Shown: piece after piece, positions 49,710 through 60,319 of the stretch
Numbering within the stretch: the stretch's first letter is position 1
Layout: the number at the start of each line of letters is the position of its first letter
NCBI RefSeq assembly: GCF_000010305.1
Contig: NC_012489.1
Location: 2,797,646-2,861,645, forward strand
DNA: 64,000 nucleotides
Reading direction: 5' to 3'
Source: Gemmatimonas aurantiaca T-27
GTDB taxonomy: Bacteria; Gemmatimonadota; Gemmatimonadetes; Gemmatimonadales; Gemmatimonadaceae
Program-made: the position numbers and the translations under genes
The notes under the pieces: model-generated
What the model saw: the letters and a program-made list of their open reading frames with translations, nothing else
What the model was told of the DNA's origin: nothing
The model's database searches: none

Positions 49710-51080
49710 TCAAAGGGAAACGAGCGCGTCGAGCGGCTCGCGGGCCTGCGAAATCAGATGACGCGCCGCGGCGTCGGTGGGGGCTTCGGCAATCACGCGC
49801 ACGATGGGCTCGGTGCCCGACGGGCGCAGGTGCACCCAACGGTCCGGCCAGTCGAGACGCAGGCCGTCCTGCGTGTCTGCCGAGGCATCCGGAAATGCAG
49901 CCCGGAGCGCCGCATACACCGTATCGAGCGGCGCATCCGGGCGATCGAGCTTGTCTTTCACAATCACATACCGCGGGCGATCGGCAACCAACGCCGACAA
50001 CGGCCGGCCTTCTTCGAGCATCACCTGCAACATGAGCGCGGCGCCTACCGGCGCATCACGTCCCAGATGCAACTCGGGCAGGATGACCCCCCCATTGCCT
50101 TCACCACCGATCGTGGCGCCGGCATCACGCATGGCGATGGCCACGTTCACCTCACCGACACTGGCGAAGTGGAACGGCACGCCCAGTTCATGCGCCACAT
50201 CGGACACCACCTTGCTGGTGGACAGATTGGTCACCACGGGGCCCGGCCGGTGCCGCAGCACCGTACGAGCCGCAAACGCCAGCGTGTAGTCCTCGCCCGG
50301 CGCCTTGCCATCGTCGAGCACCAGTGCCAGGCGGTCGACATCGGGATCGGTGGCGAATCCGATGTCGGCGTTGGAGCCACGCACGAGCGCTTCGAGTTCG
50401 CCAAGGTTTTCCGCCACGGGTTCCGGCGGACGATGGAAACGCCCATCCGCTTCCATGTTGATGGCGTACACTTCACAACCGAGTTCGGTGAGCAACGCAG
50501 GCATGATCACGCTGCCGGCCCCATGACAGCAATCCAGCGCCACCCGGAAACGTCGCGCGCGAATGCCAGGCACATCGAGCCAGGGCAATGCCAACACCTG
50601 CGCGATATGACGATTGATCGCATCATCGTCCTGCTCGATGCTTCCCAGTTGGTCCCACGTGGCGCGCGGGATGCCCCGCTCCAACAAAGACCGCATCTCC
50701 GCGCCTTCGGCAGCAGAGAGGAACAGACCGGACGGTCCGATGAACTTGAGCGCGTTCCATTCGATCGGGTTGTGGCTCGCCGTGATGCCAAGGCCACCCG
50801 CGGCATGATGATGTTCGACCGCGAGCTGAATCGTGGGCGTCGGAACCATGCCGATATCGATGACCGTGCATCCGACCGATTCGAGCGCGCCGTGTACGAT
50901 ACGCGTGAACATCGGCCCGGAGACACGACTGTCGCGCCCCACCACCACACGGCGATTTCCCGTGCGTGAAGCCCACGCACCAAACGCCGCAGCAAATGTC
51001 GCGATGACTTCCGGTGTGAGCGCGTCACCAACCCGACCGCGCACACCCGACACGCTCACCATCAACCCATCAAACGCCAT
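49710..51080 (-). CDS. glmM: Phosphoglucosamine mutase (GlmM-like phosphohexomutase)
   Basis: This phosphohexomutase (456 aa) should convert glucosamine-6-phosphate to the 1-phosphate, the step after GlmS. The active serine is in GITASHNPIEWNALKF, the metal site in ATDPDVDRLAL, the sugar loop is GGEGNGGVILP and the phosphate loop RPSGTEPIVRV. The GEGNGG loop is more like the archaeal-type phosphoglucosamine mutases than E. coli GlmM (GEQSGH); the operon with glmS supports the GlmM role over phosphomannomutase. The ATG at 51080 has GAGGAG at good spacing; an ATG 12 bases upstream is less likely. Confidence 0.9.
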   Translation of the reverse strand: MAFDGLMVSVSGVRGRVGDALTPEVIATFAAAFGAWASRTGNRRVVVGRDSRVSGPMFTRIVHGALESVGCTVIDIGMVPTPTIQLAVEHHHAAGGLGITASHNPIEWNALKFIGPSGLFLSAAEGAEMRSLLERGIPRATWDQLGSIEQDDDAINRHIAQVLALPWLDVPGIRARRFRVALDCCHGAGSVIMPALLTELGCEVYAINMEADGRFHRPPEPVAENLGELEALVRGSNADIGFATDPDVDRLALVLDDGKAPGEDYTLAFAARTVLRHRPGPVVTNLSTSKVVSDVAHELGVPFHFASVGEVNVAIAMRDAGATIGGEGNGGVILPELHLGRDAPVGAALMLQVMLEEGRPLSALVADRPRYVIVKDKLDRPDAPLDTVYAALRAAFPDASADTQDGLRLDWPDRWVHLRPSGTEPIVRVIAEAPTDAAARHLISQAREPLDALVSL

Positions 51081-51270
51081 GAGGCTCCTCAATTCTGAAT
51101 GCTACGCCTGCGCTGTGCGATCGTGCACGCGTGCAAGCTAGGCACGTCACACGACTGGAACCACGGGTCGTCATCTGCAACTCAGCCAGCTCATCCATAC
51201 CAAGATGCGCCTGTCGAGCGAAACGCCTCTGAAGCCCCCGCGCACAGCTTATCTGGAATAAGACGCGCAG

Positions 51271-51288
51271 CTGTGACACGCGTTACAG
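51271..51288. promoter_or_regulatory. CRP/FNR-like 18-bp imperfect palindrome
   Basis: CTGTGACACGCGTTACAG is symmetric in 14 of 18 positions and contains TGTGA-N6-TTACA, close to the CRP consensus TGTGA-N6-TCACA. It lies 49 bases upstream of the gene at 51337 and about 190 bases before glmM. A short inverted repeat, CTTAT-N5-ATAAG, sits at 51248-51262. The remaining sequence between 51081 and 51336 shows no gene. Confidence 0.4.
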
Positions 51289-51336
51289 TCTCGGTATCCG
51301 CTCCCACTTTTGACCGCGAGTCCGATATCGTCCGTC

Positions 51337-52101
51337 ATGTCTGATCCACTCGCCCTCTTCCCCTTCGCGCTCGCCGCCGGTGGTGGTCACCTCGATCAGG
51401 TCGAGGTCAGCGCTTCGGTCGCTGCCGGCATCACGCTGCTACAGCGCTGCGCCCCATTGGTGCGGGCACTGGCCGGCAAGTCGGCAGCGGCCCTGCTGCC
51501 GGCTGGCAGCGGCCTACTCACGGCCCTGGCAGCGTCGGATGGTCGGGCGCTGGTCTGGATCGATCCGAAGACGCCGGTGGACACACTGGTCACCGATGTG
51601 CCACAACACCACATCGGTGCGCTGTTCACGACCACCGACCTGGCGGATTGCCTGCCTCAGCATCTTCTCGGAACGATCGCGCTGGTCCTGCTCGACCAGG
51701 CTCCAGCGCATGCCGTGGTGCGCGTGGCCGACCGGGAACTCTCCGTCGACCTCGGATCACACTTCGGCCTTTCGCTCGAAGGCGATCGGGAAGCGGAGGG
51801 GCGCGACGAACCCTGCCTACTCATTGCCGGCCCGGCGCAGACGGTGCACACGCATCGCCAACTGCTGCAACACGCGCGCGATTTTGGCCGGAACGCCGCG
51901 CTCACGCCGGTGGATCGCACCTGCACCATCATGCCGCATATCGATATCGACCTGCTCGTGGCCGGTGTGGCCGCGCCGCTGCTGTACGGTGGACAGGTCT
52001 TTGTCCTGCCCGCTGAAGACCGTACACGCATCGAGGCACTGGCCCCGACGCGCCTGGTCACGTCAGGCGACGATCTGCAGACGCGTCTGACGCCGCACTG
52101 A
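51337..52101 (+). CDS. Degenerate acyl-CoA-synthetase-like (ANL superfamily) protein
   Basis: This 254-aa protein reads like the N-terminal half of an AMP-forming acyl-CoA synthetase. It has RALVWIDPKTPVDTLVTDVP, then a segment where the phosphate loop should be, VHTHRQLLQHARDF (like the TH-x-N helix of ANL enzymes), then PHIDIDLLVAGVAAPLLYGG and the PTRLVTS strand. The Ser/Thr/Gly-rich ATP loop before TH is replaced by LIAGPAQTV, and the whole C-terminal half is missing. It is therefore unlikely to adenylate substrates. No ribosome-binding site precedes the ATG. Its end overlaps the convergent regulator gene by 39 bases. Confidence 0.6.
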   Translation: MSDPLALFPFALAAGGGHLDQVEVSASVAAGITLLQRCAPLVRALAGKSAAALLPAGSGLLTALAASDGRALVWIDPKTPVDTLVTDVPQHHIGALFTTTDLADCLPQHLLGTIALVLLDQAPAHAVVRVADRELSVDLGSHFGLSLEGDREAEGRDEPCLLIAGPAQTVHTHRQLLQHARDFGRNAALTPVDRTCTIMPHIDIDLLVAGVAAPLLYGGQVFVLPAEDRTRIEALAPTRLVTSGDDLQTRLTPH

Positions 52102-53145
52102 CCAATCCGGCAGCGGGAAGGTCTGGCGTGCGATGGCCTGTTCGAAGGCCGCGACACATTGCGGATCGAACTGCGTGCCGGAGCACTGACGTAGTTCGGC
52201 GATCGCCTCGTCCACCGGCATGCCATCACGATACGGGCGGCCACTGGTCATGGCATCGAACGAATCGGCCACGGCGGTGATGCGCGCTTCGAGCGGAATA
52301 TCTCCGGCCCGCAGTGCATCCGGGCTGCCACACCCGTCGAAACGTTCATGATGAGACCGTACGACGGCCAGCGCATGCGGCATCTCCTGCAGCAGCGGCG
52401 ACAGCAGGCGCCAGCCGATGACCGGATGCTCCATCACATGGAGATATTCCTCATCGGTCAGCGGCCCCTCCTTGTTCAGGATGCCTTCGCGCACCCCGAT
52501 CTTGCCGATGTCATGCAAACGACTGCCCAGCTCCAGTTGTTCCAGTCGCGGCGACGGCACGCCCAGTTCACGGGCAATCGCCACCGCATATCGCGAAACT
52601 CGGGTCGAGTGTCCCCACGTGTAGGCGTCTTTCACTTCCAGTGCATCGGCCAGTGATTGCAACGACGCCAGGAAGAGCTCTTCGTATTTGCGCGCCTGCA
52701 GCGACACCCGCTCTTCCAGATGATCCCGATACGCCTGGTTCTCCAGCAACAACCGACGTTTCTCGAGCGCCTGTGCCACACGGGCGCGCACTTCTTCGAT
52801 CGAGAACGGCTTCGTGAGATAGTCGAGCGCCCCACTGTCGAGACAGCGCACGGCGAGGTTCACATCGGAGATCGCGGTGATCATGACGACGGCGGTGTGC
52901 GGCCACCGTTCCCGGACCTGCCGTAGCAGTTCCGCACCGTCCATGCCCGGCATGTGGAAATCGGAGAGCATCAACGGCACGGGTTCGGCGGCGAGCCGTT
53001 CCAGTGCTTCGCTTCCCGACGATGCCTCGAGACATTCGAACCCTTCCGCCGTCATCAAACGACGGAGAATGCCACGCATCGAGGGTTCGTCATCCACAAT
53101 GAGACATCGGCGCAGCTCACCCGTGAGCGCGTAATGCATGTTCAT
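52063..53145 (-). CDS. Response regulator with HD-GYP-type output domain
   Basis: This 360-aa protein has a CheY-like receiver domain (residues 12-125) with the acidic pair in IVDDE, the phosphorylatable Asp in LMLSDFHMPGMDG and the Lys in DYLTKPFS. A short coiled linker and an HD-GYP-type phosphodiesterase domain follow. The HD pair is intact (SRLHDIGKIGV) and the loop reads HHERFDGCGSP, where the family normally has GYP: the Tyr is Ser. Such proteins degrade cyclic di-GMP when phosphorylated. No histidine kinase gene is adjacent. Starts at 53145 and 53139 are both possible. Confidence 0.88.
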   Translation of the reverse strand: MNMHYALTGELRRCLIVDDEPSMRGILRRLMTAEGFECLEASSGSEALERLAAEPVPLMLSDFHMPGMDGAELLRQVRERWPHTAVVMITAISDVNLAVRCLDSGALDYLTKPFSIEEVRARVAQALEKRRLLLENQAYRDHLEERVSLQARKYEELFLASLQSLADALEVKDAYTWGHSTRVSRYAVAIARELGVPSPRLEQLELGSRLHDIGKIGVREGILNKEGPLTDEEYLHVMEHPVIGWRLLSPLLQEMPHALAVVRSHHERFDGCGSPDALRAGDIPLEARITAVADSFDAMTSGRPYRDGMPVDEAIAELRQCSGTQFDPQCVAAFEQAIARQTFPLPDWSVRRQTRLQIVA

Positions 53146-53187
53146 CACGCGGCCGGCTTGGGATCACGCGGCCAATCCGGCCAGATC

Positions 53188-53275
53188 ACCACCGGTGGTT
53201 CGCCCGCCCCTTGGCGAGCTGCCCCGCGCCGACCGGGATGGCCCTTCGCTGCTCGCCCCGCAGCGGCCGGGCGGA
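53188..53275 (+). promoter_or_regulatory. Structured leader candidate upstream of metB
   Basis: A 12-bp palindrome (ACCACCGGTGGT, 53188-53199) is followed by an 8-bp pairing of 53199-53206 with 53268-53275 (one G-U) that encloses two small stems, 53213-53216 with 53227-53230 and 53247-53252 with 53260-53265. This gives a three-way junction 40 bases before the metB ATG. It matches none of the SAM riboswitch classes that I can recall, and the region is very GC-rich, so it could be chance. Confidence 0.3.
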
Positions 53276-53315
53276 TAGCTTCCCCGGACAACTCTCCCCG
53301 AACGACACGAAGCCC

Positions 53316-54485
53316 ATGACGCGCATTTACGACGAAGATCTTGCGGGTGGCCTCGCCACGCGCGCCATCCACGCTGGCCAACGCCCCGACGAAGTCTCGG
53401 GCGCCATCATGACGCCGCTCTACCTCACGTCCACCTACGTGCAGGAGAGCATCGGCGTCAACAAGGGGTACGAGTACGCTCGCGGAAAGAACCCCACGCG
53501 CCAGGCGCTCGAGCGCAATGTGGCGACGCTTGAAGGCGGCCGGCACGGCTTCGCCTTCAGCAGCGGCATGGGATGCCTCGATTCGATCATGAAACTGTTC
53601 CGTGCCGGCGATCACATTGTGTGTGCCGAAAATGTCTACGGCGGCACATTCCGGCTGTTCGATCGAATCCTGCGCCATCTGGGACTGTCCTTCTCGTACG
53701 TGGACACCAGTGATCCACAGCGGGTGGCCGAGGCCATGACTCCGGCCACACGGGCGCTCCTCGTGGAGACGCCGACCAATCCGCTGATGCGGCTCACCGA
53801 TCTTCGTGCCATGAGCGACATCGCCAAGCGGCACCAGGCCCTGCTGATCGTGGACAACACCTTCGCGACGCCGGTCTTCCAGCGTCCGTTGGAGCTCGGT
53901 GCCGATATCGTCTGGCACTCGACCACGAAGTACATCAACGGTCACTCTGATATGATCGGCGGCCTCGCAGTGGTTCTTGAGGACGACCTCGCGGATCGCC
54001 TGCAGTTCATCCTGAACGCCGCGGGTGCCGTGCCCGGCCCCTTCGACGCCTGGCTGGCCCTGCGTGGCACCAAGACGCTGCCCCTGCGCATGAAGCAGCA
54101 CGACATCAATGGCCGCGCGGTCGCCAACTTCCTCCTCGGTCGCCTGGGTGAGGAGCGCGTGATCTATCCGGGATTGGCCCATCATCCACACCACGAACTG
54201 GCCAAACAGCAGATGTCGGCGTTTGGCGGCATGATGACGCTCGAACTGGGCTCCATCGACAACGCCCGCCGGTTCCTCGAGCGGGTCCGAGTTTTCTCGT
54301 TGGCGGAATCCCTGGGCGGTGTAGAGAGCCTCACCAATCACCCGTACTCGATGACCCACGGCTCAGTCCCGGCCGATGTGAAGCAAGCGATGGGGCTGAC
54401 GGACGGGATGGTACGCCTGAGCTGCGGCATTGAGGACACCGAGGACCTGATTGCGGATCTCGAGCAGGCGCTCGAAGGGCTGTGA
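53316..54485 (+). CDS. metB: Cystathionine gamma-synthase/lyase family PLP enzyme
   Basis: This PLP enzyme (389 aa) belongs to the Cys/Met-metabolism family. The PLP lysine is in HSTTKYINGHSDMIGG, and the GHSD form is typical of cystathionine gamma-synthase and gamma-lyase. Further marks are YEYARGKNPTRQALE, VETPTNPLMRL and the C-terminal SLGGVESLTNHPYSMTH, which contains the substrate carboxylate-binding region. Synthase (MetB) and lyase cannot be separated by reading alone; a MetZ-type paralogue at 40221 leaves either role open. A hairpin follows the gene. Confidence 0.88.
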   Translation: MTRIYDEDLAGGLATRAIHAGQRPDEVSGAIMTPLYLTSTYVQESIGVNKGYEYARGKNPTRQALERNVATLEGGRHGFAFSSGMGCLDSIMKLFRAGDHIVCAENVYGGTFRLFDRILRHLGLSFSYVDTSDPQRVAEAMTPATRALLVETPTNPLMRLTDLRAMSDIAKRHQALLIVDNTFATPVFQRPLELGADIVWHSTTKYINGHSDMIGGLAVVLEDDLADRLQFILNAAGAVPGPFDAWLALRGTKTLPLRMKQHDINGRAVANFLLGRLGEERVIYPGLAHHPHHELAKQQMSAFGGMMTLELGSIDNARRFLERVRVFSLAESLGGVESLTNHPYSMTHGSVPADVKQAMGLTDGMVRLSCGIEDTEDLIADLEQALEGL

Positions 54486-54515
54486 GTCGCGAAGCACGGA
54501 TTGGGAAGTGAACTG

Positions 54516-54547
54516 CCGGGGCTCGAGTCACCAGACTCGGGCCCCGG
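54516..54547 (+). terminator. Hairpin after metB
   Basis: A 14-bp stem (54516-54529 with 54534-54547, one G-U pair) has a 4-base loop, ACCA. It begins 31 bases after the metB stop. There is no T tract, so it may be a weak or factor-assisted terminator. Confidence 0.55.
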
Positions 54548-54636
54548 GTCCGTAGCCAGGGAGGTCACCGCAAACCGGCGCCCGACCCCCAAACCGCTGG
54601 CTGGAACCAATCCCCGCGCCCGCCGTAGGGATTCCC

Positions 54637-55722
54637 ATGCCCACCACCCCGCTTACGCAGATTTCGTCGGTCAGCTGGGAGCACCCGGCCGATCGCGCGG
54701 CGCTGCAGACCCTGCGCGCCCTTCCCGGTTTCGATGAAGTCGTCCGCAAGATCGCCAGCGTCTTTGGCGAGCGCGGCGTCCGAAACCTCTTCCTCGGCGA
54801 CGCGGTCCTTGTTGGCCCGACGCAACGCCCCCGACTTCACGCGCTGTACCAGGAAGTTCTGGCCACGCTCGACTGGCCTAACGCCGGCCTGCCGGCGCCG
54901 CAGCTCTATGTGGCACAAACCCCGATCGCCAACGCCGGCGCCGTTGGATTCGACCAGCCGTTCATCGTGATCAGCTCGGGCACGTTGGAACTGCTCGAAC
55001 CCGATGAGCAGCGCTTCGTGCTCGCCCAGCAGCTCGGCCACATCATGACCGGGCGCACGACGTATCGCACCATTGCGCTGATCGTGCTGTTCTTCGGCAT
55101 GAGCGCCCTGCCCCTGCTTGCCTCCATCGCACTGTTGCCGTTCCAACTGGCTCTGCTCGAGTGGTACCGCAAGTCGGAGCTTTCGGCCGATCGCGCCGGC
55201 ATGCTCGGCACGCAGGACACGCGGGCCAGTCTCATGACGTTTCTCAAGCTCGCCGGCGGACGGGCAGACGGTGACAGCATCGATCTCGATGCCTACCTCG
55301 CACAGGCTGCCGACTACGAGCTGGGTGGCACGGCATGGGACAGCGTGCTCAAGGCGCTCAATACGGCGTTGCGGGAACACCCGTTCCACACGGTGCGCGC
55401 GGGTGAACTGCGCCGCTGGGAACAGACAGGCGCGTACGGCACCATCGTAGGGGGCGACTACATCCGTCGCGGGTCAGAGGCTGAACGTCCACTGCACGAC
55501 GACATCAAGGACGCGCGCGATTACTACGCCGACAAGGCGAAGGCCGCCGCAGAGACGGTCGGCGATGTGATCAACCGCGCCGCCGACGCGTTCCGTGATG
55601 CCTTCCGTGCGGCGGCAACCGCTACATCGGCCGCGGCGGGCGATGGACCAGGACCGGATGCGCCACCGCCGCCGCCTCCACCACCGCCCCCACCAGCCCC
55701 GGCGCCACCGCCAACGAACTAG
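54637..55722 (+). CDS. M48-like membrane protein with a degenerate zinc site (pseudoprotease)
   Basis: This 361-aa protein has the layout of HtpX-type M48 metallopeptidases: a soluble N-terminal part, a helix where HExxH should be, a hydrophobic hairpin (ALIVLFFGMSALPLL, then IALLPFQLALL) and an ExxxD helix (KSELSADRAGML). The zinc motif is changed: FVLAQQLGHIMTG replaces the usual VLAHELGHI, so one zinc His and the catalytic Glu are Gln. The third ligand Glu is kept. It is therefore probably inactive as a protease and may bind peptides or partners. The C-terminus has an amphipathic Ala-rich helix and a tail with twelve consecutive prolines. The cellular role is unknown. Confidence 0.78.
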   Translation: MPTTPLTQISSVSWEHPADRAALQTLRALPGFDEVVRKIASVFGERGVRNLFLGDAVLVGPTQRPRLHALYQEVLATLDWPNAGLPAPQLYVAQTPIANAGAVGFDQPFIVISSGTLELLEPDEQRFVLAQQLGHIMTGRTTYRTIALIVLFFGMSALPLLASIALLPFQLALLEWYRKSELSADRAGMLGTQDTRASLMTFLKLAGGRADGDSIDLDAYLAQAADYELGGTAWDSVLKALNTALREHPFHTVRAGELRRWEQTGAYGTIVGGDYIRRGSEAERPLHDDIKDARDYYADKAKAAAETVGDVINRAADAFRDAFRAAATATSAAAGDGPGPDAPPPPPPPPPPPAPAPPPTN

Positions 55723-55858
55723 GACGGGTCCGGGTCGCGGGTTTAGTGTTCCGGGGTGATCAGCCGAGTCATGCGTTGTGGGCCATGCGTTTCGTGTGGC
55801 CGTCACGCGGGATCCGGCAGGTCACCCCGTTACTCGTTCCCCGAACCCCACGACCGCA

Positions 55859-57139
55859 GTGAAAATCCTCCTCCTCGGCTCCGGCGGCCGTGAACACGCG
55901 CTCGCCGATACGCTCCTGCGTGAAAACACGTCGATCGAATTGATCGCGGCGCCCGGCAATCCCGGCATCGCCGAGTTGGGTCGCATGATCGATATCGACG
56001 TGAACGACCCGCGTATCGTGGCCGCCGCCGCCGAGCGTGAGCAGGTTGATCTCGTGGTGGTGGGCCCGGAGGCCCCGCTGGCGGCCGGTGTGGTGGACTA
56101 TCTGCAGGAACGTCGTATTCCTGCCTTTGGCCCAACGGCGGGAGCGGCCACGGTCGAAACATCGAAGGCCGACACGAAGGCGCTGATGATGGCAGCGGGC
56201 ATTCCCACGGCGCACGCAGAAACCCATCGTGACGCCGCGTCGGCCAAGGACGCGGTGCGGGCGCGTTTTGGTGCGCCGGTGGTGATCAAGGCCAGTGGTC
56301 TGGCCGCTGGCAAGGGCGTGATCGTGTGCCAGAGTGAGAAGGAAGCATTCGACGCCATCGACCGGATTCTCGATGATCGGGCATTCGGTGATGCGGGCAG
56401 CGAGTGCCTCGTGGAATCGTTCATGACGGGTGAAGAGCTGTCGCTCTTTGCGGTCACTGATGGTTATGACGTCCTGCCCATGATCGGCGCGCAGGACCAC
56501 AAGCGCCTGCTCGATGGTGATGAGGGGCCGAACACCGGGGGTATGGGTGCGTACACGCCGGTGTCGTTCTCCACGCCCGCGTTGGTGGACGACGTGACCG
56601 AACGCGTGCTGTTGCCCACATTGCATGCTCTGCGCAAGCGCGGCACACCGTTCACCGGGCTGCTGTATGCCGGGTTGATGCTCACCCCCGATGGCCCCAA
56701 GGTGGTGGAGTTCAACTGTCGCTTTGGCGATCCCGAAACGCAGGCCATTTTGCCGATGCTCACGAGCAGCCTGCTCGATCCGATGCTCGCCGTGGCACGT
56801 GGCGCGCGGATCGGCAGCATGTCGGCATTCACGTGGCGTCCGGGGGCGAGTGTCACCACGGTGGTGGCATCGCGCGGCTATCCGGATGCGCCGCGCAAGG
56901 GAGCGGAGATTTCCCTTCCGGATTTCGGTAGTGACGTGCGGGTGTTCCACGCTGGCACGAGTCGGGATGCCTCTGGCGTCCTGCGCACCAGTGGAGGTCG
57001 TGTCTTTGGTGTGACGGCGCTGGCTGACACCTTTGCGGCCGCACAGCGGGCCAGTCGTGATGCCGCGGCCCGTATCGAGTTCGATGGCGCAATTTTCCGG
57101 TCCGACATCGGCTGGCGGGAAGCCGCGCGGATTGCCTGA
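55859..57139 (+). CDS. purD: Phosphoribosylamine-glycine ligase
   Basis: PurD (426 aa) makes GAR in purine synthesis. It shows the N-terminal [12 protein letters not shown], the ATP-grasp segments [14 protein letters not shown] and [13 protein letters not shown], and the metal-binding [17 protein letters not shown]. The start is GTG at 55859, giving [13 protein letters not shown], the normal family N-terminus; the frame is open to an ATG at 55778, but those residues are unconserved. No other pur gene is adjacent. It overlaps mutM by 8 bases (TTGCCTGA). Confidence 0.95.
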
Positions 57140-57971
57140 ACTGCCGGAAACGGAGACCATCGCGCGCGATCTGCACGCGATGGTGGTGGGCAGCGTGGTG
57201 CGGGATGTTTCGGTGCCCCGCCCCGATGTGCTGCGTGAGATTGCCGCAGCGGATTTGTGCAGCGCCTTGTCTGGTGGGCGCATCACCCGGGTGTGGCGCC
57301 GCGCCAAGCTGATCGTGCTCGACCTCACGCTGGCCGATAGGCAGAACAGCCACCTCGTGGTGCAGCCGCGCTTCACTGGTGGGCTGCTGGTGGACGACGG
57401 CACGTTGCCGACCAGCGAGTTTGCCTACAGTTGTGTGGCGATGTCTCTCGGCGATGGTCGCACCCTCCACTATCGCGACGTGCGCCGGCTGGGCACGGTG
57501 GCGCTGATGCCAGAGGCGCGATTTCTCGAATATTCGTCGGGGCTGGGCCCCGAGCCCCTTGACCAAACATTCGACGCAACTGCATTTTCGGGTTGTGTTC
57601 GGTTATCGCATCAGTCCATCAAAGTCGTTTTGATGGATCAGCGGCGATTGGCCGGCGTTGGCAACATCTACGCGAACGAGGCCCTGTGGCGCGCCGGCAT
57701 CGATCCTTCCCGAGAAGCTTCCTCGTTGACGTTTGCCGAGGCAGAACGGCTGCACACCGCGTTGCGCGACGTGCTGACGGCGAGCATCGCGGCCCGTGGC
57801 ACCAGTTTCCGCGACTATCGGGATGCGCGAGGTGAGCGTGGCACCTTCGTTGAGCAACTGGCCGCCTACGGACGCGGCGGGGAACCCTGCCCTCGCTGCG
57901 GTCGACGGCTCGTGGTCACCCACGCCGTGGACGGCCGCAGCACGGTCTTCTGCCCGGGCTGCCAGTTCTAG
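57132..57971 (+). CDS. mutM: Formamidopyrimidine-DNA glycosylase (canonical MutM)
   Basis: MutM (279 aa) excises oxidised purines such as 8-oxoguanine. Translation must begin at the TTG at 57132, since only this gives the catalytic MPELPETE N-terminus; the codon overlaps the purD stop. The DNA-binding Lys lies in RRAKLIVLDL, the VGNIYANEALWRAGIDP helix-turn-helix region is clear, and the zinc finger is CPRCGRRL with STVFCPGCQ. It is a second Fpg family member beside the one at 45381. Confidence 0.94.
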   Translation: MPELPETETIARDLHAMVVGSVVRDVSVPRPDVLREIAAADLCSALSGGRITRVWRRAKLIVLDLTLADRQNSHLVVQPRFTGGLLVDDGTLPTSEFAYSCVAMSLGDGRTLHYRDVRRLGTVALMPEARFLEYSSGLGPEPLDQTFDATAFSGCVRLSHQSIKVVLMDQRRLAGVGNIYANEALWRAGIDPSREASSLTFAEAERLHTALRDVLTASIAARGTSFRDYRDARGERGTFVEQLAAYGRGGEPCPRCGRRLVVTHAVDGRSTVFCPGCQF

Positions 57972-58014
57972 TCCGTTCGCGGGCGGAAAGCCGGTTGCTG
58001 GAGAGCAGCTCGAT

Positions 58015-59193
58015 CTGGCCGTCGATACACCGGCAGTCGATATCGAACGGCTGCGGGATCAGGTTCGCGCGACGGCGCGTAACGAGCCGGGCGTGTACCT
58101 CATGCGCGGCGGACGCGGCGACGTGCTGTACGTGGGCAAGAGTACGCAGGTGCGAACGCGACTGCTCTCCTACTTTCGCCTGCCGTGGCCCGAACATCGT
58201 CATGCCCGGATGTTGCGGGAGACGGCACACATCGAATGGGAGCCACATCCGAGCGAGTTTGCGGCGTTGTTGCGCGAAGTGCGTCTCATTCGCGCGCACT
58301 TGCCGCGTTACAACGTGCGATCAGCGCGCCCACTCGACAAATGGTGGGTGATCACGATCGCCAAGGGACTCACGCCGCGCCTGCGGGTGCAGCGGGCCAG
58401 TGCGGCCGCACGCTCTCGCGACGTCGCACAGATCATCGGTCCTTTTGCATCCCGCCGGCCACTGGTGGACGCACTGCGCGTCTTGAACGACGCGCTGGGT
58501 CTGCGGGATTGTTCCGATCGCATCCGCATGCATGTGCGCGATGTGGCCGAGCTGTTCGAGGAGCATCATCCGGCGATGCAGCGCACGCCGGCATGTCATC
58601 GCTATGAAACGCGGCGTTGCCTCGGCCCCTGTGTAGGCGCGACCAGTGAGTATGAGTATCGTACCCAACTCACACGCGCCAAGGCGGTGCTCGAGGGGCG
58701 CGACGATTCTCCGCAGCAGCACCTTGTGCGCGAAATGGCGGTAGCCAGTGCGGCACTGTCGTACGAACGTGCCGGCTGGTTGCGCGACCGGCTCACCGCG
58801 CTGCAGGACCTCGAATCACAACTGGCGCGTGTGCGCGAGGCGCTGTCGCGACCGAGTTGTGTCTACGCGGTGCCTGGCCGCCAGGGCGATGACCGACTGT
58901 ATCTCATCCGGCATGGTCGTGTGGTCGCCGAGGCTCGATGTGCAGACCCCGATTCGGTGAATGACCTGCAGGCGCTCGAATCACGCGCCACGCAGGCTCC
59001 CTCCGGCGCCATGGTGGATCAGCTCGACGAACTCCTGCTGGTGGAGTCGTGGTTGCGTGGGCGACAGGGGGAGCGTGCGCTGGTGGCCGACTCCGTGGTG
59101 GGCGCACTGCAGGCGCTGGCCTGCTCTTACTCCTCGGTCGGCTCTTCGGTCGGCTCCTCGACCAGCAACGGAATCAGCTCCACGTCGGCCTGA
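58015..59193 (+). CDS. GIY-YIG nuclease, UvrC-like but lacking the RNase H domain
   Basis: This protein matches the N-terminal half of UvrC. It has the GIY-YIG nuclease fold (GVYLMRGGRGDVLYVGKS, then RTRLLSYF), the conserved Arg/Glu helix (HPSEFAALLREVRLIRAHLP), the UvrC-type cysteine cluster CHRYETRRCLGPC and a UVR-like helical pair (ALSYERAGWLRDRLTALQDL). It ends after about 390 residues, without the endonuclease-V-like RNase H or HhH domains, as in Cho-type nucleases. No ATG, GTG or TTG start exists in frame after mutM; a CTG at 58015 with GGAGAG 11 bases upstream is proposed, otherwise a TTG inside mutM (57850). The tail SSVGSSVGSS overlaps the next gene. Confidence 0.8.
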   Translation: MAVDTPAVDIERLRDQVRATARNEPGVYLMRGGRGDVLYVGKSTQVRTRLLSYFRLPWPEHRHARMLRETAHIEWEPHPSEFAALLREVRLIRAHLPRYNVRSARPLDKWWVITIAKGLTPRLRVQRASAAARSRDVAQIIGPFASRRPLVDALRVLNDALGLRDCSDRIRMHVRDVAELFEEHHPAMQRTPACHRYETRRCLGPCVGATSEYEYRTQLTRAKAVLEGRDDSPQQHLVREMAVASAALSYERAGWLRDRLTALQDLESQLARVREALSRPSCVYAVPGRQGDDRLYLIRHGRVVAEARCADPDSVNDLQALESRATQAPSGAMVDQLDELLLVESWLRGRQGERALVADSVVGALQALACSYSSVGSSVGSSTSNGISSTSA

Positions 59194-59642
59194 CCGTTCC
59201 GGATGTACAGCTTGGCCACGCTGGGCTGCAAATCGAAGCGACGTGGGCCGGCGGCGCCGGGGTTGATCACAATGCGCCGGGCGGCCTTGGTGATCAACTG
59301 CCGGTGTGTATGGCCATACACGATCACCTGCGCCGTGGGGTAGGCGCTGACGAGACGGGGCGGCGTGGTGGAGCCCACTTCATGGCCATGGGTCACCACG
59401 ATGCGCACGCCATCGATCACCTCTTCGATGCGCTCCACCAGATCGTGCCGCCCCGGTGCATCGGTGTTGCCCCACACGGCACGCACGGGAGCAATGGTCG
59501 CCAGTTCCGTGAGCACGTCAGCGGGGCCGACGTCACCGGCATGAAAAATCTGCGACACACCCTGCAGCGCCTGAAAGACCTCCGGGCGCACCAGGCCATG
59601 TGTATCCGAAATCAATCCAATGATCGTGGTGCTCTGTGTCAT
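59127..59642 (-). CDS. YfcE/MJ0936-type metallophosphoesterase
   Basis: This 171-aa protein is a small calcineurin-like phosphoesterase. Metal-binding motifs are in order: SDTHG near residue 12, HAGDVG, GNTD, VTHGH and YGHTH. Family members hydrolyse phosphodiesters or act as regulators; the substrate is not predictable. The ATG at 59642 overlaps the upstream TPR-like gene stop (ATGA). The acidic C-terminal tail comes from the 12-bp repeat, and the last 67 bases overlap the convergent UvrC-like gene. Confidence 0.9.
   Translation of the reverse strand: MTQSTTIIGLISDTHGLVRPEVFQALQGVSQIFHAGDVGPADVLTELATIAPVRAVWGNTDAPGRHDLVERIEEVIDGVRIVVTHGHEVGSTTPPRLVSAYPTAQVIVYGHTHRQLITKAARRIVINPGAAGPRRFDLQPSVAKLYIRNGQADVELIPLLVEEPTEEPTEE
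59134..59157. repeat. Two 12-bp tandem units inside a convergent gene overlap
   Basis: TCGGTCGGCTCT is followed directly by TCGGTCGGCTCC. On the plus strand it encodes SVGS repeats at the end of the UvrC-like protein; on the minus strand it encodes the acidic tail EEPTEEPTEE of the phosphoesterase. Copy number could change both tails at once without a frameshift. Confidence 0.7.
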
Positions 59643-60319
59643 CCCATGTCCGAGGTCGCCGCACGGAGGGCACGACGTCGCTGCAATTCAGCGAGCGCAC
59701 CTTCCGCATCCGGCGTCCCCGGAAATCTGTCGGCCAGCCGCCGAAGTTCCACCACCGCGCGCCCGGAATCTTCGAGCGGACCCAGATAGAGGTCGACCAG
59801 CCGGTGGGTGGCGTAGAGCTCGTCACTGCGCGACCCATCGGACACATGGCGCAGCCGCTGCAATGCAATACGGGCCCGGTCATGGTGCCCACTCGAGGTC
59901 ATGAGCTCGGCTTCTGTTCGCAGGGTGGCCGCCGAGTCGCCGTGCTCGAGCCGGATGGACTCGAAAATATCGATCGCATCGTCGAGCCGGCCCTGGGCCG
60001 CCATCGCTTCCGCCTGCGACACCGGCACCACGGGCGGCTGCTGCTCACCACCGCCTGAGGGATGCAGGAACTGATGGAGCACGGCTCCGCCCAGTCGCGT
60101 GACGGTGGACAACACGGCGAACAGCAGACCTGCCGCCACGGGGGCGATGAACAGTCCCAGCAGAAGCCGTGAACGCCCTTGGGCGCCATACAGCATCACC
60201 ACCACGATCGCTGGAGCTACCAGCGCGGCGGATACCACCACTCCCACCGACACGGCGCTCCAGAAGCGTCGGCGGCGTTCACGTTGAATGGATTTCTCGA
60301 ACAAGTCGAGATCAAGCAT
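59639..60319 (-). CDS. Membrane protein with TPR-like cytoplasmic domain
   Basis: I do not recognise a named family for this 226-aa protein. It has a basic N-terminus (IQRERRRRFW), two membrane segments (about residues 20-45 and 55-80) and a soluble part made of TPR-like helical pairs (AEAMAAQGRLDDAIDIFESI, later TSSGHHDRARIALQRL and DSGRAVVELRRLADRFPGT). The ATG at 60319 excludes 26 unconserved upstream residues. It follows ubiX by 78 bases and overlaps the phosphoesterase gene, so it belongs to the same operon as the quinone genes. A scaffold role is possible but unproved. Confidence 0.75.
   Translation of the reverse strand: MLDLDLFEKSIQRERRRRFWSAVSVGVVVSAALVAPAIVVVMLYGAQGRSRLLLGLFIAPVAAGLLFAVLSTVTRLGGAVLHQFLHPSGGGEQQPPVVPVSQAEAMAAQGRLDDAIDIFESIRLEHGDSAATLRTEAELMTSSGHHDRARIALQRLRHVSDGSRSDELYATHRLVDLYLGPLEDSGRAVVELRRLADRFPGTPDAEGALAELQRRRALRAATSDMG

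Follow-up and report, generated by a model that had tools for sequence, protein, structure and literature searches.

HtpX and the Ste24/ZMPSTE24 enzymes are membrane-embedded M48 metalloproteases with intact catalytic residues. YqgP, iRhoms and Derlins have the rhomboid serine-protease fold and not that of a metalloprotease, and the iRhoms are paralogues of active enzymes. Pseudoproteases are usually put down to duplication with the active twin remaining. The concept common to the YqgP-FtsH adaptor, iRhoms and Derlins is a membrane protease or pseudoprotease that presents substrates without catalysis, as exemplified by the catalytically dead YqgP, a rhomboid of B. subtilis, which is reported to present substrate to FtsH (PMC7231995).

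Within the M48 family, E. coli BepA (YfgC) is a periplasmic protein with a TPR domain and an active HExxH motif. Exchange of the Glu of this motif for Gln gives a protease-dead protein that is described as crosslinking to a client and weakly supporting its maturation, and the edge strand of BepA is required for its chaperone-like activity (PMC8423444). The His of the M48 plug, which is defined as an HPX4R motif, regulates access, and the E137Q form of BepA has a strong dominant-negative effect and fails to bring back resistance to vancomycin (PMC7950410); a dead M48 protein is thus not automatically a good chaperone. In the Oma1-like RF1 proteins of sugar beet the motif reads HQVGH, and the restorer of fertility is linked with preSATP6 binding (PMC6894571). 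The question of what an M48 protein does besides cutting also concerns BepA and further membrane proteases of dual function.

In the window, which is the whole 64,000-nucleotide stretch considered in the current analysis and occupies 2797646-2861645 of the single-contig Gemmatimonas aurantiaca T-27 genome of 4,636,964 bases, a protein of 361 residues with an altered M48 catalytic motif has been identified. Pfam Peptidase_M48 (PF01435) has been assigned to it with an E-value of 3.7e-15 (56.7 bits, cut-off 20.3), a score well over the cut-off in spite of the lost catalytic residues, and judged on the sequence this homology is not due to chance. QQLGH, within VLAQQLGHI at residues 128-136, occupies the place of the HEXXH signature, which is absent. 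Orthologues with the two glutamines are referred to as QQ and those with HExxH as HE; the 113 distinct sequences compared, drawn from 129 loci (some twice) in part of a set of 298 genomes of the phylum, comprise 21 QQ proteins (one of them QQxxN) and 92 HE rows, two of which represent a single gene (G305) in identical, overlapping fragments. The features of the gene are as follows.

54637..55722, + strand: candidate M48-type membrane pseudoprotease of 361 residues (open reading frame with ATG start; Pfam PF01435; AlphaFold2 model)
54931..54942, + strand: N99-A100-G101-A102, at the place of the M48 substrate-binding edge strand, a putative correspondence equated by eye with N105-A106-F107 of BepA
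55027..55032, + strand: Q131-Q132, where HExxH has its catalytic Glu and, before it, the His that is the first zinc ligand (QQ in each of the 21 QQ proteins; H and E throughout the 92 HE rows)
55039..55041, + strand: H135, the second His of the motif, kept in 20 of the 21 QQ proteins (L045 has N instead)
55054..55056, + strand: R140, replacing a near-invariant His (R throughout the 21 QQ proteins, H in all but one of the 92 HE rows; codons CGC, CGT and CGG)
55057..55164, + strand: hydrophobic helical hairpin, residues 141-176, between the active helix and the E181 helix (hydropathy; AlphaFold2 helices 141-157, 160-165 and 167-192)
55177..55191, + strand: E181xxxD185, the helix of the third ligand, kept (invariant in QQ and HE rows)
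55378..55398, + strand: H248-P249-x4-R254, the M48 active-site plug motif, kept (HPx4R in 21 of 21 QQ proteins and 91 of 92 HE rows)
55492..55638, + strand: long C-terminal helix, residues 286-334 (AlphaFold2 model)
55648..55713, + strand: proline-rich tail, residues 338-359, with a run of 11 prolines at 343-353 and mixed CCN codons (sequence)

The reading frame, the glutamines at the place of HExxH, the hydrophobic hairpin, the ExxxD helix and the long polyproline tail had all been described in an earlier note on this DNA and are confirmed, the tail with its run of 11 prolines. That note had missed the exchange of His for R140, the intact plug (HPFHTVR, 248-254) and the retention of H135 and E181. 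Since H135 and the third zinc ligand E181 (21/21 QQ, 92/92 HE) are retained, the zinc ligands are lost in part and not altogether, and with H248 also in place the protein may still bind a metal. One QQ protein, L045 (G299, 291-1349), has QQLGN, so that neither His of HExxH remains; this single loss of H135 speaks against an obligatory metal. Another locus, L141, is also without H135 and may belong to the same genome. At the edge strand A100 and A102 are present in all the 21 QQ proteins and N99 in 17 of them, as compared with 89 of 92 HE rows. A scan of 54300-56000 revealed no promoter-like site, and no RNA family was matched in a search of 50000-60000.

The protein resembles BepA in the M48 core, the HPx4R plug and the edge strand, and the Glu to Gln mutant of BepA binds its client uncut (PMC8423444, PMC7950410); it differs in having a hydrophobic hairpin and no Pfam TPR match. 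With the RF1-Oma1 proteins it shares an M48 domain with an altered HExxH, and in that system proteolysis is lost in yeast and a client-binding role is kept (PMC6894571). Those proteins are plant mitochondrial, arose from duplication with the HExxH copy retained and have one motif residue changed, whereas the QQ protein is bacterial, is the single-copy orthologue itself converted and has three residues changed.

The AlphaFold2 model of the QQ protein (mean pLDDT 88.8, pTM 0.83) and that of one HE orthologue (mean pLDDT 88.2) have their core elements in nearly the same order, the main difference being the division of the C-terminal helices. The active helix, residues 122-137 of the model, bears Q131-Q132-L-G-H135. 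Hydropathy in 19-residue windows reaches 2.4 within residues 142-176, and the hairpin 141-176 is a probable membrane anchor. The top fold rows for the QQ model are BepA, ZMPSTE24, Ste24p and 3c37, plus BlaR1, at modest Z-scores of 8.0-9.3 that are in keeping with an M48 fold; the best is 6ait_B (BepA; Z 9.3, rmsd 4.8 Å, 166 aligned), the ZMPSTE24 rows have Z about 9, and non-zincin folds scored low. Foldseek with the HE model gave no PDB match at an E-value of 0.001 or below, so the fold assignment is mainly sequence-based. Likeness to HtpX is confined to the membrane-embedded M48 domain and to weak matches: the best HtpX model among the NCBIfam equivalogs reaches 30.6 bits, far under its cut-off of 341, and an identity as HtpX is for this reason rejected. 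No close NCBIfam name is available.

A search of the 298 genomes with residues 1-305 (E-value 0.001 or below) matched 267 of them, the weakest of these matches being likely, by score, to represent other M48 proteins. Within the genus, 26 of the 30 Gemmatimonas genomes encode the orthologue, in one of them broken across contigs; completeness is 57-88% for the four that lack it (G268, G289, G300 and G302), and a match is present in 16/16 genomes that are at least 90% complete with at most 5% contamination. The residues are QQ...R in 21 of the 26 and HE...H in five. In a second scan of named genomes, made with peptide patterns that leave out the motif and possibly sharing some genomes with the phylum set, the best 80 of 592 relatives comprise 76 with HExxH, 3 with QQxxH and 1 with QQxxN. 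The HE relatives include Streptomyces, Actinoplanes and an Acidimicrobiaceae MAG, and the QQ motif is also found in 'Gemmatimonas sp. isolate UKL202c' and 'Gemmatimonas sp. UBA2094'. HExxH is thus kept in orthologues outside the QQ clade, down to Streptomyces.

In a protein tree of 111 rows, from which the motif columns, the tail and the two G305 fragments were excluded, a branch supported at SH-aLRT 96 sets all QQ rows apart. The codon tree of 35 rows gives the QQ clade a support of 93/92, which is good though not starred, and the grouping of the five HE Gemmatimonas proteins only 58/20. On these trees the catalytic residues were evidently exchanged a single time, in the common ancestor of one clade of Gemmatimonas. 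As the substitution is one event, any correlation with the loss rests on n = 1.

The locus is conserved in its surroundings, and this synteny supports the orthology of the sequences compared. Among 55 loci with longer flanks a metB-like gene lies upstream in 54 and purD downstream in 54, the one miss on each side being at a contig end; at four loci of a more distant family with short flanks (L108, L112, L122, L129) purD is found in 4/4 and metB in 1/4. By NCBIfam the upstream neighbour belongs to the cystathionine gamma-synthase family, below the cut-offs of its models, and purD and fpg/mutM are above cut-off. The order metB-like, M48, purD, mutM, UvrC-like (window 53211-59193) is conserved across much of the phylum. 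The last of these genes (57796-59193) adjoins mutM and encodes a UvrC-N-like protein, a UvrC-like nuclease lacking the other parts of UvrC; models of UvrC and of the DEDD-exonuclease-UvrC fusion matched it below cut-off only.

Conservation in the HE rows indicates how narrow the change has been. Sixty-seven positions are conserved in at least 95% of the 92 HE rows, and only 131, 132 and 140 are replaced in all the 21 QQ proteins; position 99 (the N99 above) and position 179 (K in 16/21) are loosened, and the remaining 62 are kept in 90% or more. Further fixed differences of the QQ proteins from the HE proteins of Gemmatimonas and its sister are seen only at 107 and, mostly, 290. The inferred exchanges H131Q, E132Q and H140R are each reachable by one base change per codon. 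Pairwise Nei-Gojobori counts, restricted to pairs with dS of 0.1-1.5 and rough at dS near 1, give a median dN/dS of 0.092 for the QQ clade (206/210 pairs), inside the range of 0.072-0.232 of the HE groups, whose medians are 0.077 (2/6 pairs), 0.072 (6/6), 0.232 (21/21) and 0.191 (343/435). Over the clade's dS length of 7.3, neutrality predicts 53.8 replacements at Q131, Q132 and R140 and the clade's mean dN predicts 3.8, against 0 seen. Synonymous variation occurs at codon 132 (CAG/CAA) and at codon 140 (CGC/CGT/CGG), and the three residues are hence held in their own right.

The protein thus combines lost catalytic residues with purifying selection on the rest, as expected of a pseudoprotease. 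The earlier note had read it in this way, and the reading is well supported by the sequences, with strong purifying selection and one clade (21/26 genomes) in which residues of the catalytic helix alone appear exchanged; its question whether QQ is fixed in relatives is answered by all 21 proteins of that clade. It had also held that relatives with an intact HExxH at the locus would point to a recent point loss. Such syntenic relatives do exist, but the loss is old, clade-wide and held. The QQ change is, as far as the alignments and selection counts go, real, old, clade-wide and selectively maintained, and recent point loss and assembly error are ruled out by 21 genomes of one clade.

The search for active M48 copies bears on the origin of the protein. 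The window genome encodes, in addition to this protein, three M48 proteins in which both HExxH and HPx4R are present (L001, L002 and L003) and has two weaker matches with HExxH and without HPx4R (L005 and L006). Across the 30 Gemmatimonas genomes nothing besides the orthologue scores above 38.1 bits against the window protein, which argues for conversion of the gene in place; an apparent second copy in G305 is the pair of identical overlapping fragments already mentioned. M48 paralogues with an intact HExxH are present as three distant proteins, but the orthologous group itself has yielded no active copy beside the QQ gene. A close active paralogue in the same genome, as in the iRhoms and RF1-Oma1, was not found in any of the 30 genomes, and the analogy with iRhoms drawn earlier is a loose one: the concept of a non-cutting protein holds, but here the single-copy orthologue itself was converted, with no active copy found beside it.

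We consider it probable that the gene encodes a maintained single-copy M48 pseudoprotease which binds clients without cutting them. The loss of catalysis in the QQ protein is very likely, judging from the residues exchanged, and a holding or adaptor role is moderately likely. A vertically inherited, single-copy M48 membrane metalloprotease would have lost catalysis once through H131Q, E132Q and H140R, and the protein would then have been kept for a job other than cutting. The hairpin would anchor the M48 fold in the membrane with the edge strand and plug remaining, and the fold may grip exposed segments of membrane or membrane-associated clients. The gripped clients would be held in a chaperone-like manner or presented to another protease such as FtsH (Pfam M41), which is encoded in the window genome, and presumably not cleaved; the hand-over, and the side of the membrane on which it would occur, we infer. 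As the edge strand, plug and anchor are kept and the catalytic residues lost, the holding or presentation of clients is the best-supported reading. The variation of N99 in 4/21 QQ proteins counts against a binding role, as do the neighbours, which are metabolic and DNA-repair genes.

A doubtful extension of this proposal is a metal-free M48 in which R140 supplies the positive charge of zinc beside E181 and Q131/Q132 replace ligand and base, so that the closed-plug holding state, only transient in an active M48 such as BepA, would be fixed. If true, this would be a natural M48 permanently in 'chaperone mode', arising from point changes in a single-copy gene and not from duplication. A conserved single-copy protease appears here to have been converted in place and kept, with close sister species active-site-intact at the same locus; such a conversion, together with the HE orthologues, would offer a natural before/after pair for the non-cutting roles of M48. 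By its sequence record the protein is a bacterial pseudoprotease notable for the in-place conversion of a single-copy enzyme. Neither a bacterial M48 pseudoprotease nor this protein is described in those portions of the open-licence literature covered by the search, where 'Gemmatimonas' and 'M48' occur together in 0 papers, and the text of a review of inactive metallopeptidase homologues (PMC11266112) is without the term 'M48'.

Among other explanations, it is unlikely that the protein has gained a new chemical function beyond binding, with QQ...R as a novel site of ligand binding or of non-proteolytic catalysis. In favour of it, Q131, Q132 and R140 are no less fixed than the residues they replaced (21/21 each, with 0 replacements against 53.8 under neutrality) and lie on one stretch of the modelled helix 122-137 and its end, but no other position of the pocket is known to have changed along with them, further fixed differences from the HE proteins of Gemmatimonas and its sister being confined to 107 and, mostly, 290, and no known enzyme of such a signature occurs in the fold list. 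Slightly less likely again is an iRhom-like or dominant-negative regulator, a dead protein that binds and limits an active M48 of the HtpX, BepA or LoiP type. Dead BepA does act in a dominant-negative manner (PMC7950410) and the window genome has the three M48 proteins with HExxH and HPx4R, but the other M48 proteins are distant (at most 38.1 bits in the genus) and, since the ancestral gene, present as one copy, was itself the one converted, the protein did not originate as the partner of an active twin.

That the QQ protein still cuts by way of an unusual metal site that H135, E181, H248 and Q131 would form is improbable: three of the four BepA-type ligands are kept, but the general base is a Gln, an exchange that kills BepA (E137Q), H135 is missing in one QQ protein (L045; also L141, maybe of the same genome), and the selection on R140 is left unexplained. 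It is highly improbable that the gene is a decaying relic of an unneeded protease, as might be suggested by the missing catalytic residues and the loosening of K179 and N99 in some members; the selection tests contradict it, with dN/dS at about 0.09, 62/67 conserved positions kept, no internal stop among the matches listed and a match in all 16 good genomes of the genus. A sequencing or assembly artefact has a negligible chance, as the identical residues recur in 21 assemblies, of which some consist of a single contig.

A proline-rich tail follows the M48 region in all 21 QQ proteins, with 6-20 prolines in 26-42 residues and a longest run of 3-11, and is absent in the HE Gemmatimonas proteins (four full-length and the C-terminal fragment of G305). 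PPP is found in three of the four HE proteins of the sister genus and in one more HE row of the 92 (L080). The HE orthologues of the sister genus (L021-L024) have fast-changing Gly/Pro-rich tails of 22-48 residues. That the tail led to the inactivation or followed from it is not supported beyond a single contrast on one tree, which does not establish a link, the tails of sister HE proteins also being Gly/Pro-rich; the sequences tie the tail to the catalytic loss weakly at best, and any partner of the tail would be conjectural.

A second broken M48 paralogue has been identified in the genus, in L051 (G306:C422, an HE genome) and L052 (G067:C6, a QQ genome), which are the two best of the weak matches. 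They have GREMGR at the place of HExxH, with both His changed to Arg and the Glu kept (RExxR), the plug His is T or A, the equivalent of E181 is kept, and zinc-ribbon-like CxxC pairs flank the domain on both sides. In a direct search close copies occur in 2/30 genomes of the genus and are 80% identical; the other matches, at most 31% identical in the genus and 39% in the phylum, mostly fit the main family in their places and frame lengths. Taken with the QQ orthologue, the RExxR paralogue indicates two losses of the M48 zinc site, by different exchanges, within one genus.
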